The notes under the pieces were generated by a model. It worked only from the letters and a program-made list of their open reading frames with translations. It had not been told where the DNA came from and did no database searches. 35,780 nt of DNA from Pleurocapsa sp. CCALA 161. GTDB lineage: Bacteria > Cyanobacteriota > Cyanobacteriia > Cyanobacteriales > Xenococcaceae. The DNA lies in assembly GCF_003003995.1 (NCBI RefSeq), contig NZ_PVWF01000053.1:1-35780 (forward strand), read 5' to 3'. Within the stretch, counting starts at the first letter, position 1. Every line of letters begins with the position of its first letter. The position numbers and the translations under genes are program-made. Below, piece by piece: positions 2,435-28,750 of this stretch.

Positions 2435-3316
2435 TTATCTTCTACGTCGGCTGCTACCAAAACTACGGCTAGGTCTTCTAACTCCACTACTGCCAAAACT
2501 ACTAGGTCGCTTAAGCTGTTTGGGGGTGCTTTTTCCTGAAGTACGCAAAGTACTAGAACCAACGCCAGAACCTGTAGCGCGACTATTATTTTTTAGAGTT
2601 CTACGAGCTTTATTACTAGCAGCATTGCGTAGCGAACCAGTAGTTCTTAGAGTGCGACTGTTTCTGACGGCTGCGGGAGGTGCTTTATAACGCTCTTGGT
2701 AACGGTTAACCGCTTGAGAATAGCTGCTGCCATAACCACCATATCCAGTTAGCACACCTCCAGGGGTATACATTGGTGGAACATAGTAGTGAGGTCTAAA
2801 TAGTACACTGGCGATCGCCTGACCAGCTAAAGCCCCCGCAAAAGGAGTCCAGAAGTTCGATTCTCTTCTAATCACGACTGTTTCGGGTTGACCAGTTTGA
2901 GGATCATTTCTAGTTTCCGTAACGTTGTGAACATATTCAATCTTAAAGTCTTCGGTCAAATACATTACAGGTTGTTGATTCTCGACCTGAAGATAAGTTT
3001 TTGTCCCTTTTGCTGCTTCCTCTTCGCTGATGCGCGCCATCTGTAGCTGCGCTGTTTGTAACATTGGCGGAGTACCAGCAGGAGTGTTTAACAGCATTAG
3101 GCTATATTCACCACTTGCATCATCATAGGTGGCTTGCTGGACGGGATATTTGCCATCACTAATGGAGATGGGTCTAGCAGCAATATCAGCATTATTATCA
3201 AAAGATGGTTGAGTTTGCGTTGACGTTGACGTAGATGTATTGGTAGAACCTCCACAACTAACGGTCGTCAAACATAACGATAATGACATGAATAGAATTA
3301 AGATTTTGCGTAGCAT
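2435..3316 (-). CDS. Hypothetical lipoprotein with basic Ser/Arg-rich tail
   Basis: I do not recognise a named family. The frame could start at 3385, but the ATG at 3316 is preferred because it gives a classic lipoprotein signal peptide: MLRK, a hydrophobic stretch, then lipobox TVSC followed by GG. The mature protein (about 270 aa) starts with a Ser/Thr-rich linker. Next is a mixed region with strands that includes a charged MARISEEEAAKGTK segment. About residue 175 there is a short Ala/Gly-rich patch (FAGALAGQAIASVL) before a Tyr/Pro/Gly-rich segment. The last 70 residues are full of Ser, Arg and Lys and end in RRRR, which could bind an anionic surface or nucleic acid. The protein is predicted to be anchored to a membrane facing the periplasm. 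It is convergent with the upstream kinase and has no operon partner. Confidence 0.75.
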   Translation of the reverse strand: MLRKILILFMSLSLCLTTVSCGGSTNTSTSTSTQTQPSFDNNADIAARPISISDGKYPVQQATYDDASGEYSLMLLNTPAGTPPMLQTAQLQMARISEEEAAKGTKTYLQVENQQPVMYLTEDFKIEYVHNVTETRNDPQTGQPETVVIRRESNFWTPFAGALAGQAIASVLFRPHYYVPPMYTPGGVLTGYGGYGSSYSQAVNRYQERYKAPPAAVRNSRTLRTTGSLRNAASNKARRTLKNNSRATGSGVGSSTLRTSGKSTPKQLKRPSSFGSSGVRRPSRSFGSSRRRR

Positions 3317-3571
3317 TATAAGTTCTGGCTTTAATTGTCTACTTTTGATTGTAAAACTTTCCTGACAAAACAGGATCTTCGGCAATTACTAAATGTTTGA
3401 TCGGCAATTGAGTAATACTAAATCTGGAGTTGGTGAATCTATGTATAATTTTTATTTAAGGTTTTCGGATCTTAGCTTGACTTACAAAAACTTAGAGCTA
3501 ATAGCTAGTAGATGAAGGCTTAAATAAAGACACCATTTTGTCAGCCTGAAACCCTGATTATATTTAACTTG

Positions 3572-3606
3572 CTACTTACTACTTACTACTTACTACTTAC
3601 TACTTA
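3572..3606. repeat. Five tandem copies of heptamer CTACTTA
   Basis: Five exact copies of CTACTTA run from 3572 to 3606 and cover the stop codon of cobL (3600-3602 on the minus strand). Short 7-bp tandem repeats (STRR type) are known from cyanobacterial genomes. Confidence 0.95.
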
Positions 3607-4880
3607 AGCGAAGCGGTACTAGGGCGAAACACTTTACTAGCAGTAATAATCGTCACAGGATTAAGAGGAGTTAAGCGAGTTAAATGGTTGATGGGAGTAG
3701 AGCGGGATATCTGTAATTGTAGGAGTCGATATTGCCAATGATGATTACTCAACCAATTAATCGCCTGTAGTTGATATTCAATCGTCGCGAATGCCATGAC
3801 GATCAGTCCCTTGTCCCTTAGTTTCTGACTACAGACATGCAAAATATCAGCTAAATTTCCTCCGCTACCGCCAATGAAAATGCGATCGCAATCGGGTAAA
3901 TTGCTTAATACTTCTGGCGCTTTGCCACTAATACTTTTAAGATTATCTACCTGAAATCTTTGGCTATTTTTCGTAATTAAAGTTGAACCCATACTAGTTT
4001 TTTCAATAGCAAATATCTGAGATGTCGGACATAAGCGAGCTATTTCAATCGATACTGAACCTGTCCCTGCGCCAATATCCCAGACTATTTGTTGTGGCTT
4101 GAGGGCTAATTCTCCCAAGATAGCAACACGCACTTCTTTTTTAGTAATTAAACTAGGGCGATCGCCAAAGCTTAAGAAACTACTATCAGGTAAGCCAATT
4201 AAAGGTAAATTATCTATATTTAAATCATTTTTTTGTGCTTCTCGCACTAGAATTAAGACGTTTAAAGCTGAAAAATTATGCTCATCTAAATTACTTAATT
4301 TAGTTATTTCTTTAGGTAGAAAATGACTGATCTTTTCAGCTGTATCTCCTAAATCCTCGCAGATATAGAAGCTGTAGTTAACGGGTAACTCTAGAGCAAG
4401 AAACAGACGAGCGATCGCCCCAGGATTATTATCACTATCAGTGAGAACAGCAATCTTATCTTTACCTTGTTTAAATAGCTTGATTAACTGCTCGGTAGAA
4501 CGTCCATGAACGCTGACCAAATTAGCATCTTGCCAAGGCATTTTCAGACGATTAAAAGCTAATTGTATTGAACTTAAATGAGGATAAAATTCAATTTCTT
4601 CTGGCTTAAATTTTTCCAGTAATAATCTGCCCAAACCAAAAAAAAGCGGATCTCCACTAGTTAAAATAACCACTGAATGATTGTCTAATTTTAATTGAGC
4701 GATCGCTTCAATTCCAGTCTGAAGATTAGCTAAATTTAACTTTTTGGCGGGGCAATCGGCAAAATAACTAAGATGACGTTTGCTACCCGCCAAAACTGTA
4801 GCCTTTTCAATAAGCTCTTGTACAGTTTGGCTTAATCCCTGCTGACCATCTAAACCAATCCCAACTACAGCAATAACCAA
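3600..4880 (-). CDS. cobL: Precorrin-6Y C5,15-methyltransferase (decarboxylating), CbiE-CbiT fusion
   Basis: A 426-aa bifunctional corrin-ring enzyme that methylates precorrin-6Y at C5 and C15 and removes the acetate carboxyl at C12, a mid-pathway step of cobalamin synthesis. The N-terminal half is a tetrapyrrole (corrin/porphyrin) methylase, CbiE: VVGIGLDG at the start and ILTSGDPLFFG around residue 75. The C-terminal half is a CbiT class I methyltransferase with SAM motif VWDIGAGTGSVSIEIA and acidic end IFAIEK. The length matches known CobL fusions. The start is TTG at 4880 (GTA and a stop lie just upstream), so initiation is probably weak. The 3' end, including the stop codon, lies inside a 7-bp tandem repeat. 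Other cobalamin/siroheme genes (cobT, cobA-hemD) are in this window but not adjacent. Confidence 0.93.
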   Translation of the reverse strand: MVIAVVGIGLDGQQGLSQTVQELIEKATVLAGSKRHLSYFADCPAKKLNLANLQTGIEAIAQLKLDNHSVVILTSGDPLFFGLGRLLLEKFKPEEIEFYPHLSSIQLAFNRLKMPWQDANLVSVHGRSTEQLIKLFKQGKDKIAVLTDSDNNPGAIARLFLALELPVNYSFYICEDLGDTAEKISHFLPKEITKLSNLDEHNFSALNVLILVREAQKNDLNIDNLPLIGLPDSSFLSFGDRPSLITKKEVRVAILGELALKPQQIVWDIGAGTGSVSIEIARLCPTSQIFAIEKTSMGSTLITKNSQRFQVDNLKSISGKAPEVLSNLPDCDRIFIGGSGGNLADILHVCSQKLRDKGLIVMAFATIEYQLQAINWLSNHHWQYRLLQLQISRSTPINHLTRLTPLNPVTIITASKVFRPSTASLK

Positions 4881-24520: not shown

Positions 24521-24990
24521 AAATATCTTAACTATTCTTAACTATTGCTCATAGTGATTAATCTGTCATCATATCCCCGAAGGTACAGGGTTCAGAAAAC
24601 AGTAGCTTTTACTTCATAATTCTAGAAAACTAATTTTTGCTTCCAAATATCAAGAATTTAAATTATTGGTACGGCAAATAGTATGAGTGTCAAATTCTAT
24701 ATACCTATCTAAGCTTATGTGCATTTAACTCACATCTTGCACCAGTACAAAAAAACTAAATATTTTGAGGTTGGTAATCAATTTAATGCCCTTCTCGCTC
24801 CGTCTTATATTGTTAAAAACAGCTATTTTTTGATTTTTACTGCGAAGATAAAGACATTTTTTCAGCTTTTAGCGAACAAAAAGTTTGATAAGCTAACCAA
24901 ACTCATTTTTAACTAAGTTAATCAACTAAGAACTAGGTAGAATGATCTAAACTGTTCTACTTGACAAGTAGACTTGCGTTAAGCTCAACA
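24521..24990. other. Gene-poor spacer between cobA-hemD and DUF72
   Basis: A 470-bp AT-rich stretch between two divergent genes. It must hold their promoters. A fragment similar to the dispersed-repeat core (CCCCGAAGGTACAGGG, near 24576) is present. A 65-codon open frame at 24719-24916 has no recognisable features, no good ribosome site and AT-rich low-complexity codons, so I do not call it. The end of the spacer holds a perfect palindrome (24956-24972). Confidence 0.6.
24956..24972. promoter_or_regulatory. Perfect 17-bp palindrome TCTACTTGACAAGTAGA before DUF72
   Basis: Two 8-bp arms with a 1-base centre, ending 18 bp before the ATG at 24991. It could be an operator for a dimeric repressor or a hairpin in the leader RNA. 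It also contains the alternative TTG start at 24961, making the ATG start more likely. Confidence 0.5.
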
Positions 24991-25839
24991 ATGAACTTTT
25001 ATCTAGGCTGTGCCGTTTGGTCATACAAAGACTGGGTAGGAAATCTATATCCACCTAAAAGCCAACCACGGGAATTCTTAAACTTATATAGTCACCGTTT
25101 TACCACTGTTGAAGGTAACACTACTTTCTACGCTATTCCCTCGGCAGAAACAATTAAAAAATGGGTTGAGCAAACTCCTCCAGGCTTTAAATTTTGCCCT
25201 AAGCTACATCGACAGATTACTCATCAAGGCTTCCTAACTCCTCATATTTCTAAAGCGATCGCTTTTTTTACCAGAATATCAGGTTTAGGCGATCGCCTGG
25301 GAACAACTTTTATTCAGCTACCTCCTAGCTATAGTTCTGAGTATCTATCTGACTTGACCACATTTCTGACCGCTTGTAGCCAGTCCGATCTATCTTTAGC
25401 TTTAGAAGTACGTCATTTGGACTGGTTCAAAAACGATTTGGGCGATTGCTTAAATGACCTCCTCAACCAACTAAACATAGCCAGAGTTTTGCTAGACACT
25501 CGACCAATCTATAACTGCCCTAACGATCCCCAAATTGGTTCACCTCGTAAAAAACCACAAGTCCCGCTACAAGAGATAATCACAGGAGATACCGCATTTA
25601 TTCGCTTTATTAGCCACCCTGATCGCCAATATAATCAAACCTATCTTGAACAATGGGCCGCTAAACTAAATTACTGGTTTAGTCAAGGTAAAATCGTTTA
25701 CTTTTTCGTTCACTGCCCCCAAGAAGCGAGATCGCCTGATACTGCCAAATTTTTCTACTCTTTATTCAACAACATAGACTCAGCTATTTTACCGTGGAAT
25801 AAGATTGAGCCTAACCCCACTCAGCTAAATCTGTTTTAG
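24991..25839 (+). CDS. DUF72 (YecE-like) protein
   Basis: A 282-aa DUF72 family protein with a TIM-barrel fold, function unknown. Typical segments are FYLGCAVWSYKDWVGNLYPPKSQPREFLNLYSHRFTTVEGNTTFYAIPSAETIKKWVEQTPPGFKFCPKLHRQITHQ, then LGTTFIQLPPSYS and LALEVRHLDWF. The end contains FIRFISHPDR and VYFFVHCPQEARSPDTAKFF. The frame is open from TTG at 24961, but the ATG at 24991 gives the family start (MNFYLGCAVW), and the TTG lies in a palindrome. The gene is followed by a 736-bp gene-free region with two candidate small RNAs on the same strand. No partner suggests a pathway. Confidence 0.93.
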   Translation: MNFYLGCAVWSYKDWVGNLYPPKSQPREFLNLYSHRFTTVEGNTTFYAIPSAETIKKWVEQTPPGFKFCPKLHRQITHQGFLTPHISKAIAFFTRISGLGDRLGTTFIQLPPSYSSEYLSDLTTFLTACSQSDLSLALEVRHLDWFKNDLGDCLNDLLNQLNIARVLLDTRPIYNCPNDPQIGSPRKKPQVPLQEIITGDTAFIRFISHPDRQYNQTYLEQWAAKLNYWFSQGKIVYFFVHCPQEARSPDTAKFFYSLFNNIDSAILPWNKIEPNPTQLNLF

Positions 25840-25916
25840 AGCAATAATTGTTAATAATCGTAAAGTTCATTGCCGAGAACTAAATATTAAGTTTTCATTA
25901 AGTTTATAATTAATTT

Positions 25917-26058
25917 ATTGTATATGCGGGTAAAACGACTTGCTTCAATTAACGAAGCAGCTGTGCTTATCTAGGCGACTCAATTAAGATATTGCTTAAT
26001 AATTCTCTTAAAGTTTTTGGGAACATGGTTTGGCTGACTATGTTCTCAGATTTTTTTT
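25917..26058 (+). ncRNA. Candidate small RNA, copy A of a tandem pair
   Basis: The region has no coding frame. A possible -10 element TATAAT (25905-25910) would start an RNA near 25917, but no good -35 is seen, so the 5' end is approximate. It contains a 5' hairpin (TGCTTC 25941-25946, 7-base loop, GAAGCA 25954-25959), then a box shared with copy B: CGACTC (25976-25981) and TATTGCTTAA (25990-25999). It ends in an intrinsic terminator with loop TTGGCTG and eight Ts (26051-26058). Conservation of box and terminator loop between two adjacent copies, with different stem sequences, is what a structured RNA family would show. I do not recognise the family. Confidence 0.6.
26019..26058 (+). terminator. 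Intrinsic terminator of copy A
   Basis: The stem GAACATGGT (26021-26029) pairs with ACTATGTTC (26037-26045), extendable by two pairs, across loop TTGGCTG (26030-26036). It is followed by TTTTTTTT at 26051-26058. Confidence 0.85.
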
Positions 26059-26080
26059 ACTCTACAGGAATCAAAAAAAT

Positions 26081-26100
26081 TAGTGAAAATTAGTGAAAAT
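26081..26100. repeat. Tandem duplicate TAGTGAAAAT
   Basis: Two exact adjacent 10-bp copies just after the copy A terminator. Confidence 0.85.
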
Positions 26101-26110
26101 TTAAATGTAA

Positions 26111-26139
26111 CTCTACTATGTTTAAAAAGTGCAGTAGAG
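26111..26139. repeat. CTCTACT inverted repeat in the sRNA spacer
   Basis: CTCTACT (26111-26117) and AGTAGAG (26133-26139) are exact inverted repeats with a 15-base spacer. A third copy of CTCTACT is at 26169-26175 and a near copy (CTCTACA) at 26060-26066. Confidence 0.7.
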
Positions 26140-26222
26140 AATTTGCTACAATACAGGCGTTTAGTTAGCTCTACTGTAATAAAAATTAACAACGGCTAAA
26201 GTCAGCAAACGTAATAGTTTTC

Positions 26223-26238
26223 ATTAAGTAGACTTAAT
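26223..26238. promoter_or_regulatory. Palindrome ATTAAGTAGACTTAAT before copy B
   Basis: Perfect 7-bp arms with a 2-base centre. It lies within GTTTTCATTAAGT (26217-26229), which is also found upstream of copy A (25891-25903), and overlaps a possible -10 (TAATAC, 26235-26240). It may be an operator controlling copy B. Confidence 0.4.
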
Positions 26239-26295
26239 ACAGAGGAGAAGAGGTTTTAGATTTGCATGGGGAACAAACTAAAATATATAGTTAAG

Positions 26296-26439
26296 CATAA
26301 GGACAGATTGAGATGTTAGGAATCAGCTAACAATCTCAATAATTTACGACTCGATTTTAAGTATTGCTTAACGGTTCTATATGGTTGGCGTTAGGGGTGT
26401 TGTTTGGCTGACAACGCTCCTAATTTATTTGATTTTTTT
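26296..26439 (+). ncRNA. Candidate small RNA, copy B of a tandem pair
   Basis: A possible promoter is TTGCAT (26262-26267) and TATATA (26284-26289) with 16-bp spacing, giving a 5' end near 26296; an earlier start after the palindrome at 26223-26238 is also possible. It has a strong 5' hairpin: ATTGAGAT/ATCTCAAT and GTTAG/CTAAC with one bulged A (26307-26340) and a 7-base loop. Then come CGACTC (26347-26352) and TATTGCTTAA (26362-26371), as in copy A, and the terminator (26391-26439) with the same TTGGCTG loop. Its length is about 144 nt, close to copy A (about 142 nt). There is no reading frame of note. Confidence 0.6.
26391..26439 (+). terminator. Intrinsic terminator of copy B
   Basis: The stem TTAGGGGTGTTGT (26391-26403) pairs with ACAACGCTCCTAA (26411-26423) with two G-T wobbles, across loop TTGGCTG (26404-26410). 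T-rich tracts follow (26424-26439). Confidence 0.85.
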
Positions 26440-26575
26440 ATCTACTTAACAAATATAGGTTAGTGGGAAACACGGTATCGTGTCCTCCGTAAATATACCA
26501 ATCTTTGCTATTATTTTAAACATTCATATTTAAAGCTTTGATGATCTTTTCCGTAGTTAAGCCTAGAAACTTTAT

Positions 26576-27088
26576 CTAAGCCTCATCTAATTGCACAGCA
26601 AATTCAGAGATATCAACCTGTTCATACAGTTCAAATGGTTGATGTATCCAAGGATTATTCGGCAAATACTCTACATAGTAGTCTGGTATTTTTACTGAGG
26701 CACTTTTGTACCAAATGACAGCGGTACGAATTTCTGTAATATTTTGAGGATATTTAGTTTTAAGCCAGTTAACCGATTCGGCCAAGCTAACGCCAGAATC
26801 TACTAAATCGTCAACGAGTAAAATGCGATCGCCAATAGGTTCAATTGTTGATAAATGTTCTGAGAACTTAATTACCCCACGTTCTTGATTGTTTTTCCCC
26901 CCATAGGAAGCAGTAGACAAAATAGCTAGGGGTTTATCATATAGCCGACAAAGAATATCGCCGACACGCAAACCACCTTTAGCAAGACAGACAATCTGAT
27001 CGAAGTGCCAATTAGATTTATAGATCTTGACAGCGAGGCTTTCGATTTTATGATGATATTCTGACCAGGTTACAAATAAATCCGTCAT
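26576..27088 (-). CDS. Phosphoribosyltransferase (xanthine/hypoxanthine PRT-like)
   Basis: A 170-aa type I phosphoribosyltransferase. The PRPP-binding motif is ILLVDDLVDSGVSLAES (residues about 90-106). Upstream are the strand/helix FDQIVCLAKGGLRVGDILCRLYDKPLAIL and the flexible-loop region SYGGKNNQERGVIKFSEHL. The C-terminus includes KIPDYYVEYLPNNPWIHQPFE, in which Trp and Glu residues resemble the purine-base hood of xanthine/guanine PRTs. Purine salvage is the likely role, but the base is not certain. The ATG at 27088 is clear. It is divergent from the GPH transporter gene, whose start is only 21 bp away. Downstream lies the gene-free sRNA region. Confidence 0.88.
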   Translation of the reverse strand: MTDLFVTWSEYHHKIESLAVKIYKSNWHFDQIVCLAKGGLRVGDILCRLYDKPLAILSTASYGGKNNQERGVIKFSEHLSTIEPIGDRILLVDDLVDSGVSLAESVNWLKTKYPQNITEIRTAVIWYKSASVKIPDYYVEYLPNNPWIHQPFELYEQVDISEFAVQLDEA

Positions 27089-27109
27089 AGCAGTAGGAAC
27101 ATAAACAAA

Positions 27110-28750
27110 TTGAATACTAGCGAAAAGCAGATAGAGCGGGAAAAACTTAACTTTACTACCAAACTTGCCTATGGTGCAGGAGATCTAGGACCAGCAATTG
27201 CCGCCAATCTGCTGACATTTTTCTTATTGTATTTTTTTACTGGAGTTGCGGGGTTACCTGCGGGGTTGTCAGGCAGTATTTTAGCGATCGGCAAAATCAG
27301 CGATGCGATTAACGATCCCATTACGGGAATTTTAAGCGATCGCACCCGTAGTCGTTGGGGTAGGCGTATGCCTTGGATACTGTATGGTGCTATTCCCTTT
27401 GGTATTTTGCTATTTCTTCAGTGGATCGTACCGCAATTTAGTAATGATTCGACAATTCAAACTTGGAGTTTATTTGTTTATTATGTTGCTATTGGGATTT
27501 TATCTAATTTGGCTTACACAGCGGTTAATTTACCTTACACGGCTCTAACTCCAGAATTGACCCAAGATTATGATGAACGAACTAGTTTAACTAGTTTTCG
27601 CTTTGCTTTTTCAATTGGGGGCAGTATTTTATCATTAGTCTTAGCCAGATTTATTTTTCAAACTTATGCTGACGATCCACAGCAGCAATATCTAATTTTG
27701 GGCGTAATTTGCAGTATTATTGCCACTATTGCCTTGTTATGGTGTGCTATTCGGATTCAAGAACGAGGTGCCTTACCAATTGTTAACCAACTGGGCAAAA
27801 AGATTTTGGGTTTTAGCTTGGGAGTCATCGGAACGGTGATTTTGGTTTATGGCATAACTCAGTTTACCAATACCTCAGGTAATAGCTCTTATGGGGTTGC
27901 AGGCATTCTTCTCGGGATAGAAATACTTGCTTTTGGGCTGACTTTGATTTTTGCCAAAATAGAACCTCATTTAAACAATTCCGCAGCAGTGGCAGCGAGA
28001 GATTTAGCTAATAGTGTCCCCACCGCGCCTATCAAAGAACAAATAAAGATGGCTTTTAGTAACAAACCATTTCTCTATGTAATTGGCATTTATCTCTGTT
28101 CTTGGTTGGCTTTCCAGCTTACAGCCTCAATCTTAGTTTATTATTCCGTTAGCTGGATGGGCATGAGTGAAGCAGACTCGCCAACAGTACCTCTTGCTGT
28201 TCAAGCAACAGCTTTTATTATGTTGTTTGGTTGGACTTTTATCAGTCGAAAGCTGGATAAAAAAACTGTATTTATTTTGGGTAGTATTATTTGGATTGTG
28301 GCTCAAGGAGGATTATTTCTAATTCAGCCAGGTCAAATCAAAGAACTTTATTTCCTCGCAATTTTGGCTGGGTTTGGTGTGTCGGTTGCTTTTTTAATTC
28401 CTTGGTCAATGATTCCCGATGTCGTTGATTTAGATGAATTGAACACAGGTGAGAGAAGAGAAGGCATTTTTTACAGCTTTATGGTGCTATTACAAAAATT
28501 TGGGCTGGCTTTAGCTTTATTTTTAGTCGGACAGGCACTAGAATGGTCTGGATTTATCTCCCAAGCACCAGGAGAAGTACTCCCTGTGCAACCAGACAGC
28601 GCTTTATTGGCAATTCGAATTGCGATCGCGCCTCTGCCAACTATCTTTCTCATTATTGGCGTAGTCTTAACCTATTTTTACCCCATTACTAAAGAAGTTC
28701 ACGCTGATATTCGCCGACAACTGCAAGCGCGAAAAGAGCAAGAAGTTTAG
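27110..28750 (+). CDS. GPH-family (sodium/melibiose-like) MFS symporter
   Basis: A 546-aa membrane transporter of the glycoside-pentoside-hexuronide:cation symporter family. Typical features are LAYGAGDLGPAIAANLLTFFLLYFF at the N-terminus, ISDAINDPITGILSDRTRSRWGRRMPWIL (loop 2-3 signature), NLPYTALTPELTQDYDERTSLTSFR and SMIPDVVDLDELNTGERREGIFYSF. It should take up a sugar or related solute with a cation. The protein is longer than most members: about residues 230-285 contain two additional hydrophobic segments (LGFSLGVIGTVILVYGI and GVAGILLGIEILAFGLTLIFA). The start is TTG at 27110 with AGGA 11 bases upstream; a stop at 27077-27079 blocks extension. The spacer to the divergent phosphoribosyltransferase is only 21 bp. 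Confidence 0.9.
   Translation: MNTSEKQIEREKLNFTTKLAYGAGDLGPAIAANLLTFFLLYFFTGVAGLPAGLSGSILAIGKISDAINDPITGILSDRTRSRWGRRMPWILYGAIPFGILLFLQWIVPQFSNDSTIQTWSLFVYYVAIGILSNLAYTAVNLPYTALTPELTQDYDERTSLTSFRFAFSIGGSILSLVLARFIFQTYADDPQQQYLILGVICSIIATIALLWCAIRIQERGALPIVNQLGKKILGFSLGVIGTVILVYGITQFTNTSGNSSYGVAGILLGIEILAFGLTLIFAKIEPHLNNSAAVAARDLANSVPTAPIKEQIKMAFSNKPFLYVIGIYLCSWLAFQLTASILVYYSVSWMGMSEADSPTVPLAVQATAFIMLFGWTFISRKLDKKTVFILGSIIWIVAQGGLFLIQPGQIKELYFLAILAGFGVSVAFLIPWSMIPDVVDLDELNTGERREGIFYSFMVLLQKFGLALALFLVGQALEWSGFISQAPGEVLPVQPDSALLAIRIAIAPLPTIFLIIGVVLTYFYPITKEVHADIRRQLQARKEQEV

Follow-up and report, generated by a model that had tools for sequence, protein, structure and literature searches.

The intergenic locus

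The window analyzed here (the whole 35,780-nt stretch of Pleurocapsa sp. CCALA 161 DNA) contains a gap of 736 bases at 25840–26575, flanked by a gene for a DUF72 protein (24961–25839, plus strand) and a phosphoribosyltransferase gene (26576–27088, minus strand); both identities were assigned by Pfam. The original prediction held the gap to be free of genes, which proved correct for open reading frames (ORFs) of at least 80 amino acids, the minimum of the ORF list: none overlaps it. Two related units, predicted to encode small RNAs (sRNAs), were located within the gap on the plus strand, repeated at a spacing of 372–374 bases. In a typical unit, a −10 box is followed by a 5′ hairpin, by a core that stays unpaired (ACGACTC...ATTGCTTAAC(A/G)GTTCTAT), and by an intrinsic terminator. 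The strings named in the original prediction were all recovered: the upstream box GTTTTCATTAAGT at 25891–25903 and 26217–26229, CGACTC at 25976 and 26347, TATTGCTTAA at 25990 and 26362 (8 and 9 bases past CGACTC, respectively), and the terminator loop TTGGCTG at 26030 and 26404.

Unit 1 is predicted, from its sequence, a terminator scan, folding, and homologues, to specify an RNA of about 140 nt (25918–26060). Its likely −10 box, TATAAT (25905–25910), would place the RNA start near 25917; the hexamer was present in 12/12 aligned unit-1 upstream regions, preceded by TTAAG in 8 of the 12. Downstream follow the 5′ hairpin with its 7-nt loop (25941–25959), CGACTC (25976–25981), the core (25990–26007), and the terminator (26016–26058, loop 26030–26036). 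Unit 2, predicted on the same kinds of evidence at 26291–26440, is a copy of ancestral type with homologues in 8/8 genera of the family. Its likely −10 box, TAAAAT (26279–26284), points to a start near 26291; a −10-like hexamer of variable sequence occupies a similar position in the genus alignment and in other genera. The unit is made up of a 5′ hairpin (26307–26340), TTTACGACTC (26343–26352), the core (26362–26388), and the terminator (26390–26439, loop 26404–26410). Two further features accompany unit 2: an upstream element on the plus strand at 26176–26193 (GTAATAAAAATTAACAAC) and, downstream of its terminator at 26481–26501, a conserved element denoted E3, which reads GTANATTTACNGAAGACA on the minus strand and has the variant GTATATTTACGGAGGACA in the window.

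The upstream box shared by the two units is exact in the window, as originally described, but an alignment of upstream regions did not support it as a common promoter element. In unit 1 the box abuts the −10 box and lies in a conserved region. The unit 2 box is separated from the likely −10 box by about 50 bases, on the upstream side, and is conserved only as far as the nearest relative (G003); a promoter role there was rejected. The two boxes are equivalent by accident only.

Other observations were made within the gap. Between the units, at 26057–26180, several CTCTACT/AGTAGAG repeats are able to pair (GCAGTAGAG with CTCTACTGT). The stretch just past the phosphoribosyltransferase stop (26515–26575) looks conserved in the genus; read by eye in the frame of the gene, it could continue the protein past the stop as a C-terminal tail with the end ALNMNV. 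It is possibly a conserved 3′ region, or the Pleurocapsa strain may have an early stop.

Structure of the predicted RNAs

Both unit terminators were detected by the terminator scan, which returned three terminator-like sites as compared to 1.8 expected from shuffled sequence. Folding z-scores for the two units were −3.4 and −3.9, and in neither case did any of 200 shuffles fold as well. Over 25 units, 97.0% of the cells in the terminator stem were paired. The covariation score of the stem was 0.362, as compared to 0.253 ± 0.020 in shuffles that ignore kinship (relatedness alone can beat such shuffles); 0/500 shuffles reached it, and slid controls gave 0.10–0.16. The compensatory change originally proposed for the terminator stems is upheld by this score, but a second measure, of further pair types, gave the stem no support (325/500 shuffles reached its value). 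The terminator scan and the covarying stem point to what is expected of an sRNA, an independent intergenic gene with an intrinsic terminator.

The 5′ hairpin, for which z-scores were calculated in unit-2-type copies only, changes widely in sequence yet refolds: in 20 of 24 loci it folded better than 95% of mononucleotide shuffles, a mark missed in G002, G008, G010, and G020. The core was mostly unpaired in centroid folds of the window units, with parts of it paired in some full-unit minimum-energy folds. The terminator loop GTTTGGCTGAC is invariant within the genus while the stem around it changes, but it is not conserved across the whole family. Likewise, the exact 10-mer TATTGCTTAA is invariant, together with the loop, only within the genus and in a single copy from a sister genus. 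The deeper, family-wide motif is TTNAC(A/G)(A/G)TT; ACGACTC or a variant of it is found in some genera and absent from others.

Distribution and descent

A BLASTN search with the region against 150 relatives matched the 12 remaining genomes of the genus and gave a single match in G016. Homologues exist beyond the window locus; because homologous units recur in these 12 genomes, the units are beyond chance. The original prediction of two related small-RNA genes stands. Both units were present in 13/13 genomes of the genus (Waterburya-type, Pleurocapsales), although G010 has a degraded unit 1. They sit in tandem on a single contig in every genome but G003, in which each unit is at the end of a separate contig. 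Degraded unit 1 of G010 was omitted from alignment A1, and unit 1 of G003 (contig end, broken stem) was also omitted from alignment A2 and model R1.

G013, G020, and G014 received only weak scores from model R1 (25 units; E 0.017–0.07), with the matches in the same DUF72/phosphoribosyltransferase/MFS neighborhood; the placement between DUF72 and phosphoribosyltransferase genes is common to three other genera, their genes being read from translations. A search with E3 yielded more orthologues, in G015, G018, G022, and G023. Model R2 (alignment A4), built from 16 of the units known at that stage, reached E < 0.001 in 23 of the 27 family genomes. Fifteen of the 23 had supplied training rows; the independent eight were G002, G003, G005, G006, G007, G009, G020, and G026. 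With G019 added on the basis of its architecture, orthologues were accepted in 24/27 family genomes and 8/8 genera. No acceptable orthologue was found in G017, G024, or G025; R2 matches in G024 (L168) and G017 (L169) were rejected as family members.

R2 was then searched across the order, in 388 genomes that include the 27 of the family. Matches at E ≤ 0.5 were obtained in 75: 24 family genomes and 51 others. None of the 361 genomes of other families within this one order reached E < 0.001. The best 7 of the 51 weaker outside matches (L160–L166; E of all 51, 0.0026–0.5) were rejected as lacking the sRNA architecture, L164 and L166 included; most of the seven resemble ordinary terminators or hairpins beside genes. 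A pattern scan of named genomes recovered nine stretches, eight in the genus and one in Elizabethkingia, the latter taken as chance, and viral contigs gave no exact pattern match. Two genomes, G011 and G016, have additional copies that are not adjacent, that of G011 being accompanied by an E3 variant. In G018 (L106, 1000–1300) an independent tandem duplication of the same sRNA was observed, followed by a degenerate third repeat. As judged from these sequences, the sRNA family appears to have been inherited vertically within one family of Pleurocapsales.

Selection and a damaged copy

Mean pairwise identities were calculated over 11 genomes, with G010 set aside and G003 left out. The cores were 84% (unit 1) and 87% (unit 2) identical, the conserved unpaired stretch expected of an sRNA; the terminators were 76% (unit 1) and 91% (unit 2) identical, and E3 87%. 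In comparison, identity was 73% in the phosphoribosyltransferase coding end, 18% in the spacer, and 31% in the region upstream of unit 2; the cores are thus better conserved than neighboring coding sequence. Selection is acting on the RNA.

G010 offers a case of natural damage. In that genome a transposase gene of IS605 type (OrfB_IS605, Cas12f1-like TNB; L048, minus strand, 2485–3666) lies between DUF72 and the decayed unit 1. The unit 1 core has fallen to 61.5% identity, where the lowest value among the other genomes is 75%, while the unit 2 core stands at 86%. Decay of a core beside an IS element amounts to a natural experiment; however, the unit 1 terminator has hardly decayed (70% as compared to 76%), which counts against the sRNA reading.

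Probable duplication and the upstream element

Unit 2 looks like the ancestral copy: it adjoins E3, has a TAAAAT-like −10 box, and carries an upstream AT-rich element common to other genera. Unit 1, whose upstream region differs from that of unit 2, looks like a duplicate with a different promoter. The AT-rich element lies about 112–142 nt before the hairpin. Its strict pattern, AAAA(A/C)TTAA(C/T)A within 90–150 nt upstream of the hairpin, was present in 17/25 loci and a loose pattern in 20/25, as compared to 0.09 and 0.28 expected from shuffles.

In two papers (PMC11633204, PMC9241938), the HLR1 consensus is given as (G/T)TTACA(T/A)(T/A), repeated after 2 nt, and activating HLR1 sites are placed about 50–100 nt upstream of the start. 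The element matched HLR1 at 15 of 16 defined positions at best (G008, G011, G012), at 11–14 in most loci, and at 12 in the window; because of these scores we name it only HLR1-like. It resembles the RpaB box HLR1 and is conserved with the gene.

The companion element E3

Alignment of 25 loci showed E3 next to the sRNA in each, albeit as a poor variant in three (G019, the second copy of G011, and G016). The exact 16-mer pattern occurred in 15 of 150 genomes, all of them in the family, with a control count of 0; one of the 16 exact rows (G002 C24) lies at another locus and looks like chance. Allowing up to three mismatches, E3 was present in 23/27 family genomes, in 22 of them at the sRNA locus. 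It occurs once at the window locus, its conservation equals that of the sRNA core, and it accompanies the sRNA even when the neighboring genes change. A dif site was considered for E3, but the second arm does not seem to fit. Judging by its sequence, it may be a minus-strand promoter or −10 region.

Candidate targets

The original prediction had called for a search of 5′ untranslated regions for matches to the two invariant segments. A 17-nt complement of the core, with up to two mismatches allowed, showed no excess in 13 genomes: of 76 matches, 24 were the sRNA genes themselves, leaving 52 as compared to 51 in the control, and the one recurrent extra match falls inside coding sequence. The short complement GTTAAGCAAT was found within 30 nt of an ATG in 97 rows; the reversed pattern, which is not a perfect control, gave 34. 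A site inside a stop-to-stop frame of at least 90 amino acids on either strand was counted as coding; by this rule 56 of 89 distinct sites were inside frames and 33 were not, two rows (G004 C194 and C269) standing outside the count. The rule can hide real leaders, for example L249, a leader with an energy of −28.4.

The ndhF1 site, 18–23 nt before the ATG, was the sole non-coding site before a real ORF common to more than two genomes. Pfam identified the gene product as complex I chain 5, and its best NCBIfam match was NAD(P)H-quinone oxidoreductase subunit 5, below the whole-protein cut-off because only 200 amino acids were scanned. Its leader carries a perfect 10-nt complement in 9 of the 11 genomes of the genus with the gene (G004 and G008 differ; G001 and G009 gave no ndhF1 gene match). 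Unit 2 has another stretch, ATATGGTTGG, that pairs with GTTAATCAT in the leader; at least seven pairs form in 8 of these 11 genomes. In G013 and G020, both partners differ from those of the genus (leader site GTGAAGCAAT, sRNA ATTGTTTCAC) and pair over 11 positions with one G·U.

Duplex scoring covered 21 family genomes; G015, G017, and G024 were read for the motif only. Cognate duplexes had z-scores of −0.1 to −3.2 in the 11 genus genomes, five of them below −2.1 (60 shuffles each). The site has mismatches in G004, G008, and G016, and the best G008 duplex lies elsewhere, as does the pairing of the G023 leader. Leaders of G014, G018, G021, and G026 paired no better than shuffles, and those of G016 and G019 barely better; no leader site was found in G015 or G024, and only a poor one in G017. 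The site is absent from the ndhF paralogues of G000 and G010. When 393 leaders, a set enriched for the seed, were ordered by energy, the ndhF1 leader of the window came 17th.

Conservation of the ndhF1 leader may have another cause, since a related motif occurs without the sRNA in other families. GTGAAGAAAT, or a sequence one base off, was found at −26 to −32 in 9/21 readable ndhF1 leaders of other families in which no sRNA was detected (three further leaders were unreadable), and for that reason the candidate is weak. A block in the region upstream of ndhF1 (variants of TGTGTCACAAT ... AGTGAAGAAATATAAAGTAGGC) was conserved in several families of the order (L305, L311–L315, L325, L334, and L335). 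From the pairing observed, the ndhF1 leader is the best target candidate, albeit a doubtful one.

Among the leaders of 26 window genes, those of the neighbors, including the DUF72, phosphoribosyltransferase, and MFS genes, gave no pairing of note; the leader of a distant gene (start at 164) paired with unit 2 at a z-score of −3.3. A DUF4079 gene was dropped as a second target: its exact site was found only in G000 and G002 among 24 loci, inside an AT-rich, promoter-like motif.

Interpretation

Homology, conservation, RNA-level structure, and terminator-like sites were observed; transcription, its start sites given above, and a base-pairing mode of action are inferred. The region probably holds two paralogous genes of one new family of trans-acting, base-pairing sRNAs. 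Each gene, about 140 nt long, would have its own promoter and Rho-independent terminator. A tandem duplication would have occurred in the ancestor of the genus, with unit 2 the older copy and unit 1 furnished with a different promoter. The RNAs would act in trans, the stretch left unpaired between the two hairpins pairing with mRNA leaders and blocking translation; the best single candidate partner would be the ndhF1 leader, pairing with the core via GTTAAGCAAT. The units have been kept by natural selection and probably act by pairing with messenger RNAs.

Other readings were weighed against this one. Tandem copies, with a second non-adjacent copy in G016 and G011, would suit non-functional repeats or the remnant of a mobile element, an explanation we consider extremely unlikely. 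It is already contradicted by the pattern of conservation: inheritance at one locus in four genera, conservation exceeding that of coding sequence, and decay of a core just where an IS element lies; nor, as noted above, did viral contigs match. Also improbable, though less so, is a tiny hydrophobic peptide. The core and loop of unit 2 can be read as a 15-codon ORF, TTG CTT AAC ... TTT GGC TGA (LLNGSIWLVLGVLFG), at 26364–26411, with its TGA stop within the terminator loop. The frame is open in 12/13 unit-2 copies of the genus and in G016, and of its six variable codons three change only silently and two more only between V and A or among V, I, and M. However, only 5/11 unit-1 copies keep the frame despite their invariant core and loop, and the unit-2 copy of G008 is frameshifted. 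Variable sites number 4/2/3 over codon positions 1/2/3, the start would be TTG with no Shine–Dalgarno sequence seen, and no such ORF was shown in the other genera listed. We therefore read the product as RNA, on the behavior of the frame across the aligned copies, and not as peptide.

An RNA product could also function differently. The unpaired core might bind a protein, for example as a sponge, and not mRNAs; a loop that stays invariant in the genus on a changing stem, and the lack of any target class that stood out, would suit such a role. The loop is not conserved across the family, however, and the analyses point to no protein, so we judge it rather unlikely. Somewhat less unlikely, but still doubtful, is a sense/antisense module, in which E3 would be the promoter of an antisense RNA running back through unit 2 and titrating or destroying the sRNA. 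The constancy of E3 beside the sRNA despite differing neighbors, and its company with the second copy in G011, would be expected of such a module, as would its minus-strand sequence: TANATT (first T in 25/25 loci, A in 23/25, last T in 24/25, third base variable) and then a conserved stretch. Against this, no conserved −35 was seen across the 25 loci aligned. Within 25000–27500, the scan found a single terminator-like site on the minus strand, which lies in the unit 1 hairpin and not near unit 2. In G016 the first copy has a degenerate E3, and the second has none in the 160 nt after it.

The sRNA reading can be extended to a fuller, lineage-specific scheme: a duplicated sRNA, under the control of RpaB, would repress NDH-1 through pairing of two blocks with the ndhF1 leader, would coevolve with that leader, and would itself be countered by antisense RNA from E3. 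As a whole, this combination seems to us very improbable. If the proposed explanation is true, the sRNA family would be restricted to one family of Pleurocapsales, its duplication could be placed on the tree along with a change of promoter, and NDH-1 would connect the sRNA with respiration and cyclic electron flow.

Comparison with known RNAs

Yfr1, Yfr2, and the other cyanobacterial families in Rfam are short intergenic RNAs with conserved motifs. Unlike these, the units described here found no Rfam 15 match at the gathering score in the window; another 18 loci, 11 of them with members of the new family, likewise gave none. At a relaxed threshold the best window match (E = 8) was due to chance. 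The original prediction, which saw no clear match to a known family, held against Rfam 15. Searches of open-licence papers on cyanobacterial sRNAs and Pleurocapsales showed no earlier report of this RNA. As far as the sequences go, the sRNA family appears real and new, though ordinary in kind, with members found in a single family of cyanobacteria.

Unlike NsiR1, which the title of one paper calls heterocyst-specific, the new family is represented in Pleurocapsales by a pair of diverged units that have separate promoter-like regions and terminators. PsrR1 (SyR1), according to one review (PMC6202907), is a trans-encoded RNA of about 131 nt, conserved in cyanobacteria, that targets psaL, psaJ, chlN, and cpcA and takes part with RpaB in a feed-forward loop in light control. 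Compared by description alone, the two differ in range: PsrR1 is widely distributed, while the new family was found in one cyanobacterial family only, with 0/361 genomes of other families matching at E < 0.001 in the one order searched. The predicted RNAs resemble PsrR1, so described, in their trans-encoded type and similar length, and an HLR1/RpaB-like element lies upstream of the new family too.
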